A stretch of 64,000 bases of DNA, from contig NZ_CP080096.1 of NCBI RefSeq assembly GCF_019428685.1, positions 2,108,001-2,172,000 on the forward strand, given 5' to 3'. The position numbers and the translations under genes are program-made. Source of the stretch: Paraburkholderia edwinii (lineage in GTDB: Bacteria > Pseudomonadota > Gammaproteobacteria > Burkholderiales > Burkholderiaceae). The notes beneath the pieces were generated by a model, which ran no database searches, had not been told where the DNA came from, and worked only from the letters and a program-made list of their open reading frames with translations. Positions 22,236 to 30,550 of the stretch are shown here, one piece after another (the stretch's first letter is position 1; every line of letters starts with the position of its first letter).

Positions 22236-22529
22236 CGCGCGCCGCCGTGTGAATTGAGGAAAACCGTGGTGAAAAGTGCAGAAAAAAGCGCGAGGCAAAG
22301 CGCGCGGAAAACCGCGGGAAAACGCGCAGGACGAACCGCGGCTCGAAGCGCCGTCGTACGGAGAACCGCGCTGAGATGCGCGGAATAAAGACGTGTCATG
22401 CAATGCCACATAGCGTGCACGGCGGCGGCAAGCGGTAGCGATCAGTTGCTTGCGGTTGTATGCGATTACGCCGTGCGTGGGCGCCCGTATCCGTCCCCCG
22501 CGGAACCGGCGACTGGCGACCGTGACGTT
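22236..22529 (-). other. Leader between minus riboswitch and cobE, with internal short repeats
   Basis: Nearly 300 untranslated bases separate the aptamer from the cobE start. At about 22255-22380 imperfect repeats of the type GGAAAACCGCGG / AAAAGCGCG occur. A 62-codon minus frame (22232-22420) runs through them and would give a hydrophobic repeat peptide, but it has no ribosome site and I do not call it. The region may include the riboswitch expression platform; I could not identify a clear terminator. Confidence 0.4.
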
Positions 22530-22712
22530 CGCCCCCTCGCATCCGGCCGGTATCCGGGCTGACGGCCTCATGCGCATCGCCTTCCCATCGGCGGATGGCC
22601 GACAGTGGCATCGAAACGCATGCGCGGACATGAAATCCGCAGGCCGCTTACCGTTGGCGGGGACAGCACAGGTCGGGCGCCTGCCGGCGCTTCCTGTTTC
22701 CCGTTTAACCGC
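22530..22712 (-). promoter_or_regulatory. Cobalamin riboswitch controlling cobE-cobO-cobB-bluB
   Basis: Read on the minus strand from 22712: AAACGGGAAACAGG (P2 entry), then the conserved core GCTGTCCCCGCCAACGGTAA, GCGG, the GCCACTGT box, GGGAAGGCGATGC and finally the B12 box region CAGCCCGGATACCGGCC near 22562-22541. The order and spacing of these elements match the AdoCbl-class cobalamin aptamer. Adenosylcobalamin binding would be expected to repress the genes downstream. Confidence 0.93.
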
Positions 22713-22813
22713 ATATGAGCGCTACGCGCAGATGCGGCACCGGACGCGGGCATACGATAGCACATGAGCCCTTCGTCGCCGGGTGGACGAGGCGGCGTCG
22801 GCAGCCCCCAGCC

Positions 22814-22843
22814 TTGACGCTTCCCCCTTACCGCGCCTACACT
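22814..22843 (+). promoter_or_regulatory. Likely sigma-70 promoter for cobW-cobN-chlD
   Basis: TTGACG (22814-22819) and TACACT (22838-22843) are 18 bases apart and lie about 43 bases before the plus-strand riboswitch begins. The position fits a transcript that starts just ahead of the aptamer. The opposite-facing minus promoter probably lies between 22713 and 22800; TATCGT on the minus strand at 22760-22755 is the best -10 candidate there. Confidence 0.55.
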
Positions 22844-22885
22844 CGCACGCACTTCTGGTGCTCGCGCGCGCCGTCCGGCGCGCGC

Positions 22886-23135
22886 AGTTAAACGGGAAAC
22901 AGCAGGCCTGAATCCTGCCCGATGCGTTGTGCCGAATACGGCTGCCGCATCATCGCTTCAGGTCAACCTGTGCTGCCCCCGCAACGGAAGGCGAGCGCAT
23001 CGCGGTGGTTGCGATGCAGAGCCGGCTTCGAGGTCCGCGCGCAAGGCCGCGCGGGCAGGCAAACCACTGCGCGAGAAACTGTTCACTCGTGTGGGAAGGT
23101 GAAGCGGCGCTCTCGCCAGCCCGGATACCGGCCAG
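22886..23135 (+). promoter_or_regulatory. Cobalamin riboswitch controlling cobW-cobN-chlD
   Basis: From 22889 the strand reads TTAAACGGGAAACAGCAGG, then TGTGCTGCCCCCGCAACGGA (conserved core, 22969-22988), AGAGCCGG, the CCACTGCGCGAGAAACTG segment (23064 onward), GTGGGAAGGTGAAGCGGCG, and GCCAGCCCGGATACCGGCC (23115-23133). All conserved blocks of a cobalamin aptamer are in order. The long middle segment suggests extra peripheral stems compared with the leftward copy. Confidence 0.94.
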
Positions 23136-23149
23136 AAGTCCAAGGGTTG

Positions 23150-23169
23150 ACGCCGCGGGGTTGCGGCGT
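23150..23169 (+). promoter_or_regulatory. Hairpin after the riboswitch, candidate expression platform
   Basis: ACGCCGC (23150-23156) pairs perfectly with GCGGCGT (23163-23169) around the loop GGGGTT, 15 bases after the aptamer. There is no T-tract, so it is not a plain intrinsic terminator; it could pair alternately with the aptamer or expose/hide downstream sequence. cobW starts about 90 bases later. Confidence 0.45.
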
Positions 23170-23257
23170 TCCGTCCACCATTTCGCGGCCTGATGTCGCA
23201 TCTTGTCTGGCACAGGGTGTCGGCCATCGCGCCGCGATTCACATTCGCGAAGTCGCC

Positions 23258-24373
23258 ATGCAAACCCAGATGCGCAAAATCCCGGTGACGATCGTCACGG
23301 GCTTTCTCGGCAGCGGCAAGACCACTCTGCTGCGCCATATTCTTCAGCACAGCGGCGGACTGCGGGCCGCCGTCATCGTCAATGAATTCGGCGAACTCGG
23401 CATCGACGGCGAAATCTTCAAAGGCTGCGGCATCGGCTGCGACGAAGACGGCCGCGAAATCGAAGGCCAACTGTACGAGCTCGCGAACGGTTGCCTTTGC
23501 TGCACCGTGCAGGAAGAGTTTTTTCCCGTGATGGAAAAGCTCGTCGAGCGCCGCGACCAGATCGATCACGTGCTGATCGAAACGTCGGGCCTCGCGTTGC
23601 CCAAGCCGCTCGTGCAGGCGTTCAAGTGGCCGTCGATCAAGAACAGCTTTACCGTCGATGCGGTGGTGACCGTTGTCGACGGTCCGGCTGTGGCGAGCGG
23701 CCAGTTCGCCGAAAACCCGGTCGCCGTCGATGCGCTTCGCCAGGCGGATCCGAACCTCGATCACGAATCGCCGCTGCACGAGCTGTTCGAAGACCAGCTG
23801 TCCGCCGCGGACCTCGTGATCCTCAACAAGATCGATCTGCTCGACGACGCGCGTGCGCAAGCGGTCGAAGCGACGATCCGCGAAGAGATTCCGGCGCAGG
23901 TGAAAGTGGTGCGCGCGCAGAACGGCCAGCTCGATCTGCACGCGCTGCTCGGGCTCGAGTCCGCGTCGGAGGAGACGATCCATCTGCGCCACGATCATCA
24001 CGGCTCGGCCGACGACCCCGACCACGCCGACCATCACCACGACGAATTCGATTCGGTGGTCGTCAGCGCCCACGCCCCGTCGCGCGAAGCGATGATCGCC
24101 GCACTGCAGCGCGTGGTCGAGCAGCACACCGTGTATCGCGTCAAAGGCTTCGCGGCACTGCCGAACGCGCCGATGCGCCTCGTGATTCAGGGCGTCGGAC
24201 GCCGCTTCGACAGCTATTTCGATCGACGCTGGCGGCCTGAGGAACTACAGGGCGAAGCAACGGCGAGCCCTCAGGCGAGCCGCTTCGTGATGATCGGCGA
24301 AGACCTCGAGCAACCGGTGTTGCAACGCGCGCTCGATGAGGCGCTGAGCACGCAGGCAGCACAACAGGCCTGA
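23258..24373 (+). CDS. cobW: CobW-family metal-handling GTPase
   Basis: COG0523 G3E GTPase, thought to deliver cobalt to the chelatase. 371 aa. The P-loop GFLGSGKTTLLRHIL is near the N-terminus; NEFGELGIDG and ELANGCLCCTVQE carry the conserved CxCC metal site. LNKIDLLDD is the GTP base-specificity motif. A His/Asp-rich stretch (DHHGSADDPDHADHHHDEFD) before the C-terminal domain is a likely metal-binding loop. ATG 23258 is family-consistent although the ribosome site is weak; an alternative is ATG 23273. It is the first gene after the plus-strand riboswitch and is followed by cobN. Confidence 0.92.
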   Translation: MQTQMRKIPVTIVTGFLGSGKTTLLRHILQHSGGLRAAVIVNEFGELGIDGEIFKGCGIGCDEDGREIEGQLYELANGCLCCTVQEEFFPVMEKLVERRDQIDHVLIETSGLALPKPLVQAFKWPSIKNSFTVDAVVTVVDGPAVASGQFAENPVAVDALRQADPNLDHESPLHELFEDQLSAADLVILNKIDLLDDARAQAVEATIREEIPAQVKVVRAQNGQLDLHALLGLESASEETIHLRHDHHGSADDPDHADHHHDEFDSVVVSAHAPSREAMIAALQRVVEQHTVYRVKGFAALPNAPMRLVIQGVGRRFDSYFDRRWRPEELQGEATASPQASRFVMIGEDLEQPVLQRALDEALSTQAAQQA

Positions 24374-24440: not shown

Positions 24441-27400
24441 ATGCATTTGCTGCGCACCACGCCGGGCGGCTTCGTCGACGATACGAAGGGCGTGATCCGG
24501 ATCGATCAGCGGCCCGCGGAGATCGTTGTACTGAGCTCGGCCGATACGACGCTGTCGCTGCTCGCGAGCGTCGTGTCGCGCCTGCCGGCCGGTTTCCCGA
24601 GCGTGCGTCTGGCCAACGTGACGTACCTGCGGCAGCCGGCTTCGGTCGATTTTTACGTCGAAGACGTGTTGCAGCATGCGCGCGTGGTCGTGGTCGATCA
24701 CCTCGGCGGTGAAGCGTACTGGCCGTATGGCATCGAACAGGTGGTCGCGCTCGCGGAGCGCAAGCAACAGACGCTCGCGATGTTCTCCGGCGACTTGCAG
24801 GAAGATCCGAACCTGATTGCGCGCAGCACTGCCGATGCGGCGCTGTGCCATCAGCTATGGCGCTATCTGCGCGAAGGCGGCCCGCAGAACGCCGAGGCTT
24901 TTTTGCGCTGCATCGCGTGGCGCGCGCTCGGCTTCGGGCGTGAGCCCGCCTTGCCGGTGCCGCTGCCCGCAGCCGCGCTCTACCACCCGTCGCATGACAC
25001 GCCGACGGTGGCCGACTGGCAGGCCCGCTGGCGCGCCAATGCCCCTGTTGTAGCGATCCTGTTCTACAAGGCGCATCTGCAGGCCGCCAACACGGCCGTG
25101 TTCGACGCGCTGATCGATGCGCTCGAAGCGCGGCGGATGAATCCGCTGCCGATAGCGATCACGTCGCTAAAGGATGCTTTGAGCCGCGACGTCGTCGACC
25201 AGTTGTGCGCGCAACATCATGCATCGCTCGTGTTGAACACGACGGCGTTCGCCGCGAGCGCGATCGACGATCCCGCGCCGCTTGCCGTGGCCGGCGACGC
25301 GCCCGTGCTGCAAGTTATCCTGAGCGGCGGCAATCGCGAAGACTGGGTCAAGGACAATCACGGCCTGAACTCGCGAGACATCGCGATGCATATCGCACTG
25401 CCCGAAGTCGATGGCCGCATCATCACGCGCGCGATCAGCTTCAAGGGGCTCGCCTATCGTTGTCCGCACACCGAAGTGGACGTCGTACGCTATCAGCCCG
25501 ATGCGGAGCGCGTCGCGTTCGTCGCGGAGCTAAGCGAGCGCTGGTGCCGCCTGCGCGCACTCGATAACGCGGACAAGAAGCTTGCGCTGATTCTCGCGAA
25601 TTATCCGGTCAGCGAGGGGCGCATCGGCAATGGCGTCGGGCTCGATACGCCGGCGTCGGTGGTCGGCATTCTGACCATGCTGCGCGACGCAGGCTACCGG
25701 ATTGCCGCGGACGAAGCGCTTCCCGCCGACGGCGATGCGCTGCTCGATCGGCTCACGCAAGGTGTAACGAACGATCCGGTTGTGCGCGACCTGAGGCCAG
25801 CACTGCAAAGTCTCGCGCTCGCCGATTACGAAGCGCATTTCGCGCGCTTGCCGGCCTCGCTGCGCGACGCGCTCAACGCACGCTGGGGCGCAGCGCAACA
25901 CGACCCGACCGTGCGGCACGGCCGCTTCATGATCGCCGGCTGGCGCTGCGGCAACGTGTTCGTCGGTATTCAGCCGTCCCGCTCGCGCGAGCAGAACGAT
26001 TACGCGAGCTATCACGACGCCGAGCTCGTGCCGCCGCATGCGTATCTCGCGTTCTATTTCTGGCTGCGCGATCAGTTCGGAATCGATGCGGTCGTGCACG
26101 TCGGCAAGCACGGCAATCTCGAATGGCTGCCGGGCAAGAGCGTCGCGCTCAGCGACGCCTGCTGGCCCGATGCGATTCTTGGGCCGATGCCGCATCTGTA
26201 TCCGTTTATCGTCAACGATCCGGGCGAGGGTAGCCAGGCGAAACGGCGCGCCCAGGCGGTCATCATCGACCATCTGATGCCGCCGCTCACGCGTGCCGAA
26301 AGCTATGGGCCGCTGCAGGACCTCGAACGCCAGGTCGACGAATACTACGAAGCCCTGATGGTCGATCCGCGCCGCGCGAAGCTGCTGCGAGGCACGATTC
26401 TGTCGACCATCGTCGAACACCGGTTACACGAAGAGCTGAGCATTGCCGAGCCCAAAGGTCAGGACGCGGAGGACGCGTTGCTGACGCGCGTCGACGCGTG
26501 GCTGTGCGAGCTGAAGGAAGCGCAGATTCGCGATGGCCTGCACACCTTCGGCCAGTCGCCGCGCGGCGTGCAGCGGCGCGATACACTGCTTGCGCTCGGG
26601 CGCTATCCGATCGGCGACGGGCAGGGCGCGAACGCGGGGCTCATCGATGCGCTCGCGCGCGATCTCGGCATCGATGGTCTGTTCGATCCGCTGACGGCGG
26701 ACTGGTCGGCGCCGTGGCAAGGCGAGAAGCCCGCTTTATTGCAGAAGGTCAGCGATGCGCCGTGGCGGCATAACGGTGATGCGCGCGAGCGGCTGGAATT
26801 GCTGGCCGGCGAGTTGCTCGGCGAGCTGTGTCGGAGCGATCCCGACGCAAGCGGCGTTGATAACGCCAACGCGGATGCGGCTTCGATTGCCGATGTCGGT
26901 GCGAATGCCAATGCCAATGCCAATGCCAATGTCGGTGCCGGTGCCGGTGCCGGTGCCGATGTCGACGAAGACGAAGACGAAGACGAGTCCAACAGTACGG
27001 CCGCCGTGCGCGACACCGGCCACATCAGCACCGTCGGTACGGCACCAGCACAATCCGCTCGACCCACACGCCCCGTCTTGCCCCAAACCGACCGCGTCCT
27101 GCAGCGCCTGCACGATGATGTGCTGCCGCGCCTCGACGCCTGCGGCCCGCAGGAAATGCAGCAGTTGAAACGCGGCCTCGAAGGCCGCTTCGTGCCGCCG
27201 GGCCCGAGCGGCTCGCCATCGCGCGGCCGCCCCGACGTGCTGCCGACCGGCCGCAACTTCTATTCTGTCGACACGCGCGCGATCCCGACTCAAGCCGCGT
27301 GGGCACTCGGTCTCAAATCGGCGCAGCAACTGCTCGAACGTCACCTGCAGGAACACGGCGACTACCCTCGCGCGATCGGCCTGTCGGTATGGGGCACGGC

Positions 27401-28457
27401 CACGATGCGCACGGGCGGCGACGATATCGCGCAGGCGCTCGCTTTGCTCGGCGTGCGTCCGAAATGGGCGCCGGGCAGCCATCGCGTGACCGACTTCGAA
27501 ATCATGCCGATTGCCGCTTTCGACCGGCCGCGCATCGATGTCACGTTGCGCGTATCGGGGTTTTTCCGCGACGCGTTTCCGAATGTCATGCATCTGTTCG
27601 ACGCGGCCGTTCAAGCGGTGGCGGACCTCGAAGACGAACCCGAGCATCTGAATCCGATTCGCGCGCGCGTGCTACGCGAGCGCGACGCGTGGATTGCGCG
27701 CGGCGTCGATGCGCAGGAGGCGCGCAAGCGCGCGGGCTGGCGCGTCTTCAGCTCGCGGCCCGGCGCGTACGGCGCGGGCCTGCAGGAAATGATCGACACG
27801 CGGCAGTGGCAAACCGACGGCGATCTCGCCAACGCGTATCTCGCGCACGGCGGCTACGCGTACACGCAAAAAACCTCGGGCGAAGACGCGCGCCACACAT
27901 TCGGCACGCGCCTCGCGACGCTCGACGTCGTGCTGCAGAACCAGGACAACCGCGAGCATGACGTGCTCGACTCGAACGACTACTACCAGTTCCAGGGCGG
28001 CATGGCCGCGGCAGTCCGGCATCTTTCGGGCAGCCAGCCGCAGCTCTATCACGCGGATCACAGCAACCCGAACGCGCCGCGCGTGCGCACGCTGACCGAA
28101 GAGATTACGCGCGTGATCCGCTCGCGCGTCGTCAATCCGAAGTGGCTCGACGGCGTGAAGCGGCATGGCTACAAGGGCGCGGCAGAAATCGCTGCAACGG
28201 TCGACTATCTGTATGGTTATGACGCGACCGCGCGCGTGATTGCCGATCATCAATATGCACTCGTCGCCGATGCGTATCTGAACGACGCCGACACGCGCGC
28301 GTTCCTGCAGGCGCACAATCCGCATGCGCTGCACGGCATCTGCGAGCGGCTGATCGAAGCGATGCAGCGCGGCCTATGGCGGGAACCGGGCGGGTATCGC
28401 GAACAGATCGAACAGCATCTGCTTGCGAGCGAACAACAGATTGAAGGGACGCGATGA
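24441..28457 (+). CDS. cobN: Cobaltochelatase large subunit CobN
   Basis: Large subunit of the ATP-dependent cobalt chelatase that inserts cobalt into hydrogenobyrinate a,c-diamide. 1338 aa, slightly above the usual 1250-1280. Typical segments include VVHVGKHGNLEWLPGKSVAL with the later YPFIVNDPGEGSQAKRRAQA, and near the C-terminus FQGGMAAAVRHLSG. About 45 extra residues of simple composition (Asn-Ala, Gly-Ala and Asp-Glu runs) interrupt the protein at 26860-26990. The stop overlaps the start of the ChlI-like ORF in ATGA, so cobN and its ATPase are coupled, consistent with one chelatase complex. Confidence 0.95.
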   Translation: MHLLRTTPGGFVDDTKGVIRIDQRPAEIVVLSSADTTLSLLASVVSRLPAGFPSVRLANVTYLRQPASVDFYVEDVLQHARVVVVDHLGGEAYWPYGIEQVVALAERKQQTLAMFSGDLQEDPNLIARSTADAALCHQLWRYLREGGPQNAEAFLRCIAWRALGFGREPALPVPLPAAALYHPSHDTPTVADWQARWRANAPVVAILFYKAHLQAANTAVFDALIDALEARRMNPLPIAITSLKDALSRDVVDQLCAQHHASLVLNTTAFAASAIDDPAPLAVAGDAPVLQVILSGGNREDWVKDNHGLNSRDIAMHIALPEVDGRIITRAISFKGLAYRCPHTEVDVVRYQPDAERVAFVAELSERWCRLRALDNADKKLALILANYPVSEGRIGNGVGLDTPASVVGILTMLRDAGYRIAADEALPADGDALLDRLTQGVTNDPVVRDLRPALQSLALADYEAHFARLPASLRDALNARWGAAQHDPTVRHGRFMIAGWRCGNVFVGIQPSRSREQNDYASYHDAELVPPHAYLAFYFWLRDQFGIDAVVHVGKHGNLEWLPGKSVALSDACWPDAILGPMPHLYPFIVNDPGEGSQAKRRAQAVIIDHLMPPLTRAESYGPLQDLERQVDEYYEALMVDPRRAKLLRGTILSTIVEHRLHEELSIAEPKGQDAEDALLTRVDAWLCELKEAQIRDGLHTFGQSPRGVQRRDTLLALGRYPIGDGQGANAGLIDALARDLGIDGLFDPLTADWSAPWQGEKPALLQKVSDAPWRHNGDARERLELLAGELLGELCRSDPDASGVDNANADAASIADVGANANANANANVGAGAGAGADVDEDEDEDESNSTAAVRDTGHISTVGTAPAQSARPTRPVLPQTDRVLQRLHDDVLPRLDACGPQEMQQLKRGLEGRFVPPGPSGSPSRGRPDVLPTGRNFYSVDTRAIPTQAAWALGLKSAQQLLERHLQEHGDYPRAIGLSVWGTATMRTGGDDIAQALALLGVRPKWAPGSHRVTDFEIMPIAAFDRPRIDVTLRVSGFFRDAFPNVMHLFDAAVQAVADLEDEPEHLNPIRARVLRERDAWIARGVDAQEARKRAGWRVFSSRPGAYGAGLQEMIDTRQWQTDGDLANAYLAHGGYAYTQKTSGEDARHTFGTRLATLDVVLQNQDNREHDVLDSNDYYQFQGGMAAAVRHLSGSQPQLYHADHSNPNAPRVRTLTEEITRVIRSRVVNPKWLDGVKRHGYKGAAEIAATVDYLYGYDATARVIADHQYALVADAYLNDADTRAFLQAHNPHALHGICERLIEAMQRGLWREPGGYREQIEQHLLASEQQIEGTR
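26901..26984. repeat. Hexanucleotide repeats inside cobN
   Basis: In-frame runs of GCCAAT (26907-26930, four copies plus GCGAAT), GCCGGT (26937-26954, three copies) and GAAGAC-type units (26967 onward) code for Asn-Ala, Gly-Ala and Asp-Glu dipeptide runs. Multiples of six keep the frame, so copy-number change alters linker length without breaking CobN. Confidence 0.85.
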
Positions 28458-29656
28458 AGAACGCAACGACTCACACGGCGAACGGCGCGATCGAAGGCAC
28501 GAGCGAACGTCAAAGCGAAGGCACAAGCGAAGTCAGCCGCGCGCCCGTGTTCCCATTCGCGGCGCTGCTCGGTCAAAACGAACTGCAGCAGGCGCTGCTG
28601 CTCGCCGGGGTGGACCCGGGCATCGGCGGCGTGCTCGTCAGCGGCCCGCGCGGCACCGCGAAGTCGACGGCGGCGCGCGCGCTCGCCGAACTGCTGCCCG
28701 ATGGCCAGTTCGTCACGCTGCCGCTCAATGCGAGCGAAGAACGCCTGGTCGGCACACTCGATATCGAAACGGTGCTGCGCGACGGCGCCGTGCGTTTTTC
28801 GCCGGGGCTGCTCGCTAGCGCCCATCGCGGCGTGCTCTATGTCGATGAAGTGAACCTGCTGCCCGATGCGCTCGTCGATGCCTTGCTCGATGCGGCGGCC
28901 AGCGGCGTCAATACGGTCGAGCGCGATGGCGTGTCGCATAGCCACGCCGCGAGCTTCGTGCTGATCGGCACGATGAACCCGGAAGAGGGCGAATTGCGCC
29001 CGCAACTGACGGACCGCTTCGGCCTGATGGTCGGTCTGCAAAACTGTTTCGATGCGCGGATCCGTCAGCAGATCGTCAAGGCGCGGCTCGCATTCGATCT
29101 GGACCCGCAGGCATTCCGCGAGCGCCATGCGCACCAGCAGGGAGACACGATGCGCCGCATCCGCGACGCTCGCGCCGCGCTCGCGCGACTCGCGTTCGAC
29201 GATGCCGTGCATGAGCATGTGAGCGCACTATGCATTGCGGCGCATGTGGATGGCATGCGAGCCGATCTCGTGATGCTGCGTGCCGCGCGTGCGCTTGCCG
29301 CACTCGAAGCAGCCGACGCGGTGACGGTCGCGCATGTCGATCGTGTCGCGCAATCGGTGTTGTTGCATCGGCGACGCATCGGCGATGTAACGCAGGGGCA
29401 GCAGTGGGACGCTCATGCGGGGGCAGGGCGCGAGCCACAAGAGCGGAGCGCCGGCGCGCAAACCAGCAGCCTGCAACGAACGCAGTCGCAGGAGCAATCC
29501 GAGTCGCAAGCCCAGTCGCAAGCGCATTCGCAAGCTGAGTCGCAAGCGCAAGCATCGCCGGCATCGCCCGAAAGCGACTGGGGTTATCTGCCGCCCCAAA
29601 GCGCCGGCACCACGCACGTAAAAGGCGTGATCCCGCTTCCGTCAAAAAAACGCTGA
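28454..29656 (+). CDS. chlD: ChlI-like AAA+ ATPase of the cobalt chelatase (zero-frame product of chlD)
   Basis: 400-aa AAA+ protein of the Mg/Co-chelatase ATPase family, the motor that drives CobN. Walker A is GPRGTAKST (residues about 64-72), Walker B is VLYVDEVNLL (about 127-136), then the sensor region IGTMNPEEGELRPQLTDRFG. A lid domain ends near residue 315. The last ~85 residues are a Gln/Ser/Ala repeat linker (SQAQSQAHSQAESQAQ) ending PLPSKKR-stop. The start overlaps the cobN stop (ATGA). The stop is directly preceded by an A AAA AAA heptamer, and a VWA domain lies in the -1 frame, so this is probably the short product of a frameshifted chlD gene; the long product would be 630 aa. Confidence 0.9.
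   Translation: MKNATTHTANGAIEGTSERQSEGTSEVSRAPVFPFAALLGQNELQQALLLAGVDPGIGGVLVSGPRGTAKSTAARALAELLPDGQFVTLPLNASEERLVGTLDIETVLRDGAVRFSPGLLASAHRGVLYVDEVNLLPDALVDALLDAAASGVNTVERDGVSHSHAASFVLIGTMNPEEGELRPQLTDRFGLMVGLQNCFDARIRQQIVKARLAFDLDPQAFRERHAHQQGDTMRRIRDARAALARLAFDDAVHEHVSALCIAAHVDGMRADLVMLRAARALAALEAADAVTVAHVDRVAQSVLLHRRRIGDVTQGQQWDAHAGAGREPQERSAGAQTSSLQRTQSQEQSESQAQSQAHSQAESQAQASPASPESDWGYLPPQSAGTTHVKGVIPLPSKKR
29644..29650 (+). promoter_or_regulatory. Programmed -1 ribosomal frameshift site (A AAA AAA)
   Basis: Seven A residues lie exactly in the X XXY YYZ register (TCA AAA AAA, then CGC TGA). A -1 slip bypasses the TGA at 29654 and continues without a stop to 30345, joining the AAA+ part to the VWA part (399 + 231 codons). 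A possible stimulator is the stem CCGCTG/CAGCGG at 29675-29696; an AAAGG lies 18 bases upstream. Frameshifting on A-rich heptamers between the ChlI-like and VWA parts of chlD genes has been described, so this fits a known mechanism. Confidence 0.8.
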
Positions 29657-29766
29657 GCCATCGGAAGAACGCCGCCGCTGGCGTATCGCGCAGCGGTTTT
29701 CGATGGCAGACAGGCGATTCATATCGTGCTCATCGCAACGCAAAAGCGGCGAGCGATCGATCCGGC

Positions 29767-30345
29767 GTGCGCATCGAATGGCCGCGCACGCTCGCCGCCA
29801 AAGGTGCGCAGCGGTTGCGTGCCGATCATTTGCGGTTCGTGCGCGAGGCGCCGCCGCGCGGCGTGCTGCACTGTTTCGTGCTCGATTGCTCGGGTTCGAT
29901 GCTGGTCGGCGCGCGGCTCGCGCTGGCGAAAGGTCTGCTTGCCGCGTTATTCGGGCGGGCGCGCGCCGATCGGCATGAGGCCGCGCTGATCTGTTTCGGC
30001 GGCGTAAGCGCCGATTTGCGTTTTGGACCGGCGATACCACGCGGCTGGAGCGAACGCTGGCTCGATCCGATCGGCGGTGGCGGCGGCACGCCGCTCGTGC
30101 CGGCGATCGAACGCGCGGCGCGCTTGCTGGCCGGCGCCGCGAAGCGCAAACCGGGTCAGCAGCGCTGGCTATGGGTGCTGTCGGATGGACGCAGCGGCGG
30201 CATGCCGGCGCGCCCTGAAGCCGCGGATCGCGTCGTGTTCGTCGACTTCGAAAACGACGCCGTGCGGCTTGGCCGATGCGAGCAGCTAGCACGTGCGTGG
30301 GACGGCGATTGCATCACGCCCGCCCAACTGATTGCGGCAGGCTGA
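29767..30345 (+). CDS. VWA domain of ChlD-type chelatase subunit (minus-one frame part of chlD)
   Basis: Von Willebrand factor A domain with the metal-ion-dependent adhesion site DCSGSM, a conserved Thr in GGGGTPLVPA and LWVLSDGRSGGM. The coordinates give the portion from an in-frame GTG (29767), 192 aa. However, the frame is open upstream as far as the frameshift site at 29650 and the residues in between (from TLSHRKN through IEWPRTLAAKG) resemble the charged segment that precedes the VWA domain in ChlD proteins. GTG 29767 has no ribosome site. The likelier product is therefore the C-terminal 231 residues of a 630-aa ChlI-linker-VWA protein made by -1 frameshifting. Confidence 0.85.
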   Translation: MRIEWPRTLAAKGAQRLRADHLRFVREAPPRGVLHCFVLDCSGSMLVGARLALAKGLLAALFGRARADRHEAALICFGGVSADLRFGPAIPRGWSERWLDPIGGGGGTPLVPAIERAARLLAGAAKRKPGQQRWLWVLSDGRSGGMPARPEAADRVVFVDFENDAVRLGRCEQLARAWDGDCITPAQLIAAG

Positions 30346-30350
30346 CGGAC

Positions 30351-30550
30351 GCCGAAACGCCGAAACGCCGAAACGCCGAAACGCCAACACGCCGAAACGC
30401 CAACACGCCGAAACGCCAACACGCCGAAACGCCAACACGCCAACACGCCAACACGCCAACACGCCAACACGCCAACACGCCAACACGCCAACACGCCAAC
30501 ACGCCAACACGCCAACACGCCGATAAGCCGATAAGCCGATAAGCCGAAGA
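30351..30550. repeat. 8-base tandem repeat, 25 copies
   Basis: Twenty-five contiguous 8-base units: seven GCCGAAAC, fourteen GCCAACAC, three GCCGATAA and one GCCGAAGA, the first type at the left, alternating, then eleven GCCAACAC in a row, then GCCGATAA. It starts 6 bases after the chlD stop and fills the space before the convergent PilZ gene. Open frames running through it are repeat artefacts. The following 143 bases to the PilZ stop hold nothing I recognise. Confidence 0.97.

Follow-up and report, generated by a model that had tools for sequence, protein, structure and literature searches.

A slippery heptamer and a covarying hairpin in the cobN-linked chlD gene of Paraburkholderia edwinii point to programmed -1 frameshifting

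How could one gene beside cobN supply a chelatase with both its ATPase and its VWA-containing subunit, when its reading frame closes before the VWA domain begins? The question is raised by chlD of Paraburkholderia edwinii, which lies in the 64,000-nucleotide (nt) stretch of DNA analyzed here and called the window (assembly GCF_019428685.1, contig NZ_CP080096.1, positions 2,108,001 to 2,172,000). A preliminary description of the window had proposed that -1 slippage at a run of seven A (A7) joins the AAA+ and VWA parts. The proposal is supported by the register and conservation of the run, a covarying hairpin downstream and the lack of a conserved start for the VWA part; because of these, programmed -1 ribosomal frameshifting is considered the best reading of the cobN-linked chlD gene, with a probability of roughly 0.93 as judged from sequence comparison. 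The elements concerned are the following.

28454..29656, + strand: chlD zero-frame product, 400 amino acids (aa), ChlI-like AAA+ ATPase and predicted small subunit (profile matches; 1g8p, 1.3e-78)
29644..29650, + strand: slippery heptamer A AAA AAA, in register (sequence and genus junctions)
29651..29656, + strand: 6-nt spacer CGC TGA, holding the zero-frame stop codon (sequence and genus junctions)
29650..30345, + strand: -1 frame continuation, linker and VWA domain with DCSGSM, completing the 630-aa product (PF13519; 2x31, 2.6e-12)
29657..29707, + strand: predicted stimulatory hairpin, 17 bp, bulged (folding, RNAalifold, covariation, model searches)
29767..29769, + strand: first possible start codon of the VWA frame, GTG, 113 nt past the first base of the stop, with no Shine-Dalgarno sequence by a simple rule

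The AAA+ frame ends TCA AAA AAA CGC TGA. Since A7 takes its first A from the third position of TCA, the heptamer stands in the register for tandem -1 slippage, as first described. An open -1 frame spans 29539-30345, and both predicted product lengths, 400 and 630 aa, agree with the earlier account. The structures matched are solved BchI/ChlI chains for the AAA+ part (1g8p) and the VWA chain of BchD for the second part (2x31). ChlI-like AAA+ and ChlD-like VWA parts are thus found in two frames related by -1, the arrangement of the published family of frameshifted chlD genes (fs-chlD). The joined 630-aa product aligns to TIGR02442 (putative cobaltochelatase) over 85-621 with 476.3 bits, which is below the curated cut-off of 779.45.

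Conservation was followed in three sets of loci. The genus sample consisted of 58 Paraburkholderia genomes, 51 of which carry chlD. In three of the genus genomes the 401 nt around the junction are identical to those of Paraburkholderia ginsengisoli, P. phenoliruptrix and P. eburnea (L014/L127, L020/L130 and L046/L147), which places the window in Paraburkholderia. Across the family, 155 of 299 genomes gave a match, and 59 loci from these were examined (19 returned with the search, three of them repeating genus loci, and 40 picked across genera). A third set, the named loci, was formed by the best 80 among the matches listed and is not evenly sampled. After removal of 11 loci with identical junction regions, the three sets gave 179 distinct loci; start-codon and folding counts were made over 182 loci, repeats still included.

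At the 51 genus junctions the site reads A AAA AAA in 49 (one of which, L015, carries one extra A upstream) and A AAA AAG in one (L027), and lacks one A in another (L032), so that an in-register A AAA AAR one codon ahead of the stop is kept in 50 of the 51. The heptamer was found in 53/59 family loci; among the exceptions, L112 and L113 have a single frame without heptamer, and in L114 the two parts lie well apart. Among the matches listed, 79 of the 80 named loci have it, as A AAA AAA in 35 and A AAA AAG in 44 (42 of the latter labelled Pseudomonas), and the 80th, from Marinomonas gallaica, is a single frame. Altogether, the heptamer stands one codon before the stop in 171 of the 179 distinct loci, including those of Burkholderia, Cupriavidus, Variovorax and Pseudomonas; L115 and L116, which gave no VWA match, are counted among the eight misses. 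The VWA match lies in the -1 frame in 170/171 heptamer loci, the exception (L044) having runs of N in its VWA part. Within the window, AAAAAARNNNTRR occurs once against 0.10 expected, and at least once in 10 of 100 shuffles; this single instance is only mildly unusual, and it is the conservation at 50/51 genus junctions that excludes chance. The stop within the spacer is TGA in 46/50 genus and 51/53 family heptamer loci, and TAG in 36/79 named heptamer loci among the matches listed, all but one of these Pseudomonas (repeats included throughout).

The hairpin begins directly past the TGA, 6 nt from the heptamer. Its outer helix of 10 bp (29657-29666/29698-29707) encloses a 7-nt bulge (29667-29673), an inner helix of 7 bp (29674-29680/29691-29697) and a loop (29681-29690). 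The preliminary description had placed a stem 24 bases downstream of the site; this exists as the inner helix, and the outer helix had been overlooked. The segment 29651-29715 folds with an energy z-score of -3.17, equalled by 1 of 200 shuffles, and RNAalifold recovered 16 of the 17 pairs from the 51 genus sequences. In the genus alignment 96.4% of the cells are paired, as compared with at most 58.4% for slid versions of the hairpin, and double changes occur in 7/17 pairs, with 60 double-change cells against 15.8 in shuffles (0/500 reached this number). When 68 distinct sequences from several genera were used, 15/17 pairs showed double changes, with 157 such cells where shuffles gave 41 (0/500), in an alignment that was itself fitted to the hairpin model. 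The comparison of orthologues, named beforehand as a check on A7 and on the stem, has come out in favor of both: the heptamer is kept in the 171 of 179 loci given above, and pairing is kept with covariation in the genus. Downstream RNA structure, as described for fs-chlD, is present here by covariation; its stimulatory effect is predicted.

When 57 sources were searched with a hairpin model built from 17 Paraburkholderia sites, the junction was recovered in all 52 that have a site, at E up to 0.025 (the window, a training site, being one of these), and there was no match in the 5 without one; seven further weak matches lay away from the junction. In a run on 76 sources, from which A AAA AAG loci, site-less loci, repeats and most of the 51 genus loci were omitted, 72 were matched at E up to 0.02 and L106, L153, L159 and L163 were not. 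All 73 model-match places checked fall on the junction. In its own genome the hairpin site scored 75.4 bits, and the next-best place 25.2 bits. Over the class, hairpin model R1 matched the own genome alone among 369, which shows that the model is narrow; since no other Burkholderiaceae are among the 21 rows listed, this run says little on that family.

Folding that is independent of the model was less sharp. At least 6 of the first 8 nt past the stop are paired in 166/182 loci versus 343/910 control windows of the same open reading frame, and folding of the 70 nt past the stop separates from control windows only partly. Spacer lengths from free folding of single sequences were scattered, because weak helices with the spacer get added; the figure of 6 nt is taken from the covarying helix. 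Pyrimidines make up a mean fraction of 0.67 of the 5' arm in the A AAA AAG group (n=45) and of 0.52 in the A7 group (n=126). Atkins et al. (2016; PMC5009743) suggested a triplex for the stem at the magnesium chelatase shift site of Pseudomonas; by the pyrimidine fractions it is not a general feature, and it is unsupported for the window gene, since the A7-group arms are not pyrimidine-rich.

On the frameshifting reading, ribosomes would translate the AAA+ part as far as the heptamer, which has the hairpin six bases beyond it, and in a fraction of them both tRNA-Lys would pair anew one base further 5'. Those that do not shift would decode a single further codon before the TGA, releasing the 400-aa ChlI-like ATPase; shifted ribosomes would continue through the linker into the VWA domain and complete the 630-aa ChlD-like subunit. 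The predicted complex is an aerobic cobaltochelatase made up of CobN and both products. It is unlikely, though worth stating, that the hairpin acts as a regulated valve, its folding or the termination at the spacer stop responding to metal ions, corrinoids or translation state; such a valve would set the ratio of ATPase to VWA subunits and so provide feedback on cobalt insertion below the cobalamin riboswitch of this locus.

Slippage could instead take place during transcription, RNA polymerase adding or dropping an A at A7 so that a mixed pool of mRNA encodes both products. A homopolymer run is indeed present, and poly-A runs of n>7 are named for transcriptional realignment in the text available of Antonov et al. 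(2013; PMC3711429). This is nevertheless very improbable, since 45/171 distinct heptamer loci (42 labelled Pseudomonas) have A AAA AAG, with six A only, and since the codon register is fixed and a covarying hairpin lies 6 nt past the heptamer. Less probable still are two coupled genes, in which the VWA part starts from a codon of its own after termination at TGA. The GTG at 29767 and the family locus with well-separated parts (L114) speak for such an arrangement, but the heptamer would then serve no purpose, and among the 182 loci there is no conserved start codon for the VWA part. Only 25 of them have a VWA-frame start no more than 30 nt from the stop, one with a motif like a Shine-Dalgarno sequence (judged by a simple rule): 15/103 genus and family loci, none with the motif, and, among the matches listed, 10/79 named loci, one with it. 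The claim that the VWA part has no good independent start thus holds, and a separate start or coupling was rejected on these surveys.

Codon conservation also bears on coupling, as some of the best-conserved codons of the VWA frame are those right after the slip and ahead of 29767. Among conserved residues the same codon is used in fractions of 0.78, 0.75 and 0.68 in the first three 8-codon VWA windows versus 0.557 in the whole VWA frame (49/51 genus loci, L032 and L044 dropped), and in 0.74 of the last 8 codons of the AAA+ frame versus 0.594 (48/51 loci, L032, L044 and L049 dropped). That the two frames result from a frameshift mutation or a sequencing error in a decaying gene can be given hardly any probability at all: indels in the A run do occur in assemblies (L032, L119), but the conserved arrangement (50/51 genus junctions, 171/179 distinct loci), together with the hairpin covariation, already refutes it.

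The chelatase genes next to chlD and elsewhere in the genome are these.

24441..28457, + strand: cobN, large cobaltochelatase subunit (TIGR02257, 1578.9 bits, cut-off 822.05)
L063:4702-7547, contig G000:C1, ~2.70 Mb: CobS/CobT-like pair, divergent, beside xsc and pta

The stop of cobN and the start of chlD overlap as ATGA (28454-28457), in line with the coupling proposed earlier. In the genus sample cobN is present in 52/58 genomes and chlD in 51/58. The two adjoin in 51/51 chlD genomes, on the same strand and with at most ~120 nt between matches (positions compared by eye); six genomes have neither, and in G019 the contig ends just past cobN. Linkage to cobN, which characterizes the aerobic cobaltochelatase with ChlI/ChlD-type subunits, is thus found. 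A second ChlI was not found in the genome, where the next matches had E values of 2.7e-6 and weaker, with 34-36% identity over parts. When ten named genomes were searched with the AAA+ part at E up to 1e-12, nine had a single match and Hydrogenophaga intermedia (L154, G336) had two; these two are both of chlD type, 65 and 66% identical to the window.

The preliminary description had reasoned from a cell without CobS/CobT. This part does not stand: a divergent CobS/CobT-like pair is encoded on another contig of the same genome and cannot be called absent. The CobS homologue scored 523.8 bits to TIGR01650 (cut-off 558.55) and the adjoining CobT-like protein, which has the CobT_C VWA domain, 283.1 bits to TIGR01651 (cut-off 759.05). 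The pair therefore lacks the CobS and CobT scores above curated NCBIfam cut-offs that mark the CobNST type, and its scores to CobS_N, CobT and CobT_C are above the Pfam cut-offs. It adjoins xsc (sulfoacetaldehyde acetyltransferase) and pta, far from cobN. A CobS-like gene of more than 500 bits with a CobT-like neighbor was found in 19/58 genus genomes, 18 with cobN and one (G039) without, and cobN is present in 34/39 genomes that have no such pair; the pair accordingly does not follow cobN. Being divergent, placed beside xsc and pta, and patchy, it is probably not the partner of CobN, and possibly an AAA+/VWA pair with another job.

Several observations weigh against the frameshifting reading. 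The CobS/CobT-like pair exists in this genome, and a CobS-like gene of more than 500 bits was found in 3/9 other fs-chlD genomes tested. In Marinomonas gallaica (L182:3001-4722) the two parts share a single frame that has no slippery site, and searches of its genome with AAA+ and CobS found neither a second ChlI-type match nor CobS; a separate small subunit may for this reason not be strictly needed. L032 and L119 have six A only at the site and an arrangement that is not plain -1 (with a second indel upstream in L119), through assembly errors or decay. Finally, same-codon fractions of 0.74-0.78 occur in two internal AAA+ windows and of 0.74 in one later VWA window, so that the codon-identity signal is weak alone.

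The remaining features of the locus are listed below.

22839..23150, + strand: cobalamin riboswitch RF00174, upstream of cobW-cobN-chlD (36 bits)
23252..24373, + strand: cobW-like GTPase (PF02492, PF07683; start chosen by the analyst, in frame with the open reading frame 22922-24373)
29494..29547, + strand: SQ-repeat of the linker, 12-nt tandem array (tandem repeat; not conserved)

A second cobalamin riboswitch (22528-22759, - strand, 77.3 bits) is oriented divergently to the one listed. Directly past the chlD stop, an 8-bp tandem repeat (ACGCCAAC) runs for 21.6 copies (30349-30521). The SQ-repeat, said earlier to form a long linker just before the site, is real; it ends ~100 nt upstream of the heptamer and was absent from the orthologue linkers compared, a partial ranking as linker delimiting failed in several loci. 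The SQ linker was rejected as a functional part on this lack of conservation.

That the mechanism is known in chlD genes, as had been stated, is borne out by Antonov et al. (2013; PMC3711429), who grouped 23 magnesium chelatase genes sharing a -1 frameshift, with Burkholderia represented. For three other members of the fs-chlD family, frameshifting in E. coli reporters of 63, 40 and 10% is given there for A11, A9 and A7. The model of two subunits from one gene is stated, and downstream structures are mentioned, in the sections available of Kuznetsov et al. (2022; PMC9227772); archaeal cases are repeated in a 2021 review (PMC8211752, in part). Strong structure potential without strong sequence conservation was noted for the chelatase site in the pertinent section of Atkins et al. 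(2016; PMC5009743), where a regulatory role was raised as a question. The mechanism is of this published kind, and what is added here is a well-resolved hairpin and the correction of the argument from a lack of CobS/CobT. The titles and abstract openings surveyed name no Paraburkholderia site and no covariation analysis of the hairpin; Antonov 2020 (Mol Biol Evol) and supplements fall outside that survey, and no priority is claimed.

Very probably, then, one gene feeds two B12 metal chelatase subunits across Paraburkholderia and relatives, and an ordinary open reading frame call would therefore show ChlI as truncated and the VWA fragment as an orphan. The covariation-backed hairpin offers a concrete element (spacer, two helices and bulge) for mutational work. 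In the A7 group the sequence varies and the pairing is kept, which partly answers the remark on structure without sequence conservation in the section cited (PMC5009743). The CobS/CobT-like pair, beside a sulfonate-degradation locus, cautions against reading pathway content from gene names.

Compared with fs-chlD as described in the sources available, the window gene shares the -1 frame, the A-rich heptamer, the order of AAA+ then VWA, the small and medium subunits from one gene, and the cobN partner. It differs in belonging to another genus and being known from sequence, in its covariation-resolved hairpin and 6-nt spacer with the stop, and in a genome that also has a CobS/CobT-like pair. With the Pseudomonas magnesium chelatase site, as far as that is described there, it has in common the A AAA AAR heptamer and, after it, a strong hairpin at the stop; pyrimidine-rich 5' arms are in contrast found in the A AAA AAG group and not in the A7 group to which the window gene belongs. 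In dnaX of E. coli, a -1 frameshift at A AAA AAG, with a downstream hairpin and an upstream Shine-Dalgarno stimulator, yields two subunits from one gene. The chlD gene resembles it in the A-rich heptamer, the downstream hairpin and the predicted origin of two subunits of one complex from one gene, and is unlike it in that the long product would gain a VWA domain.

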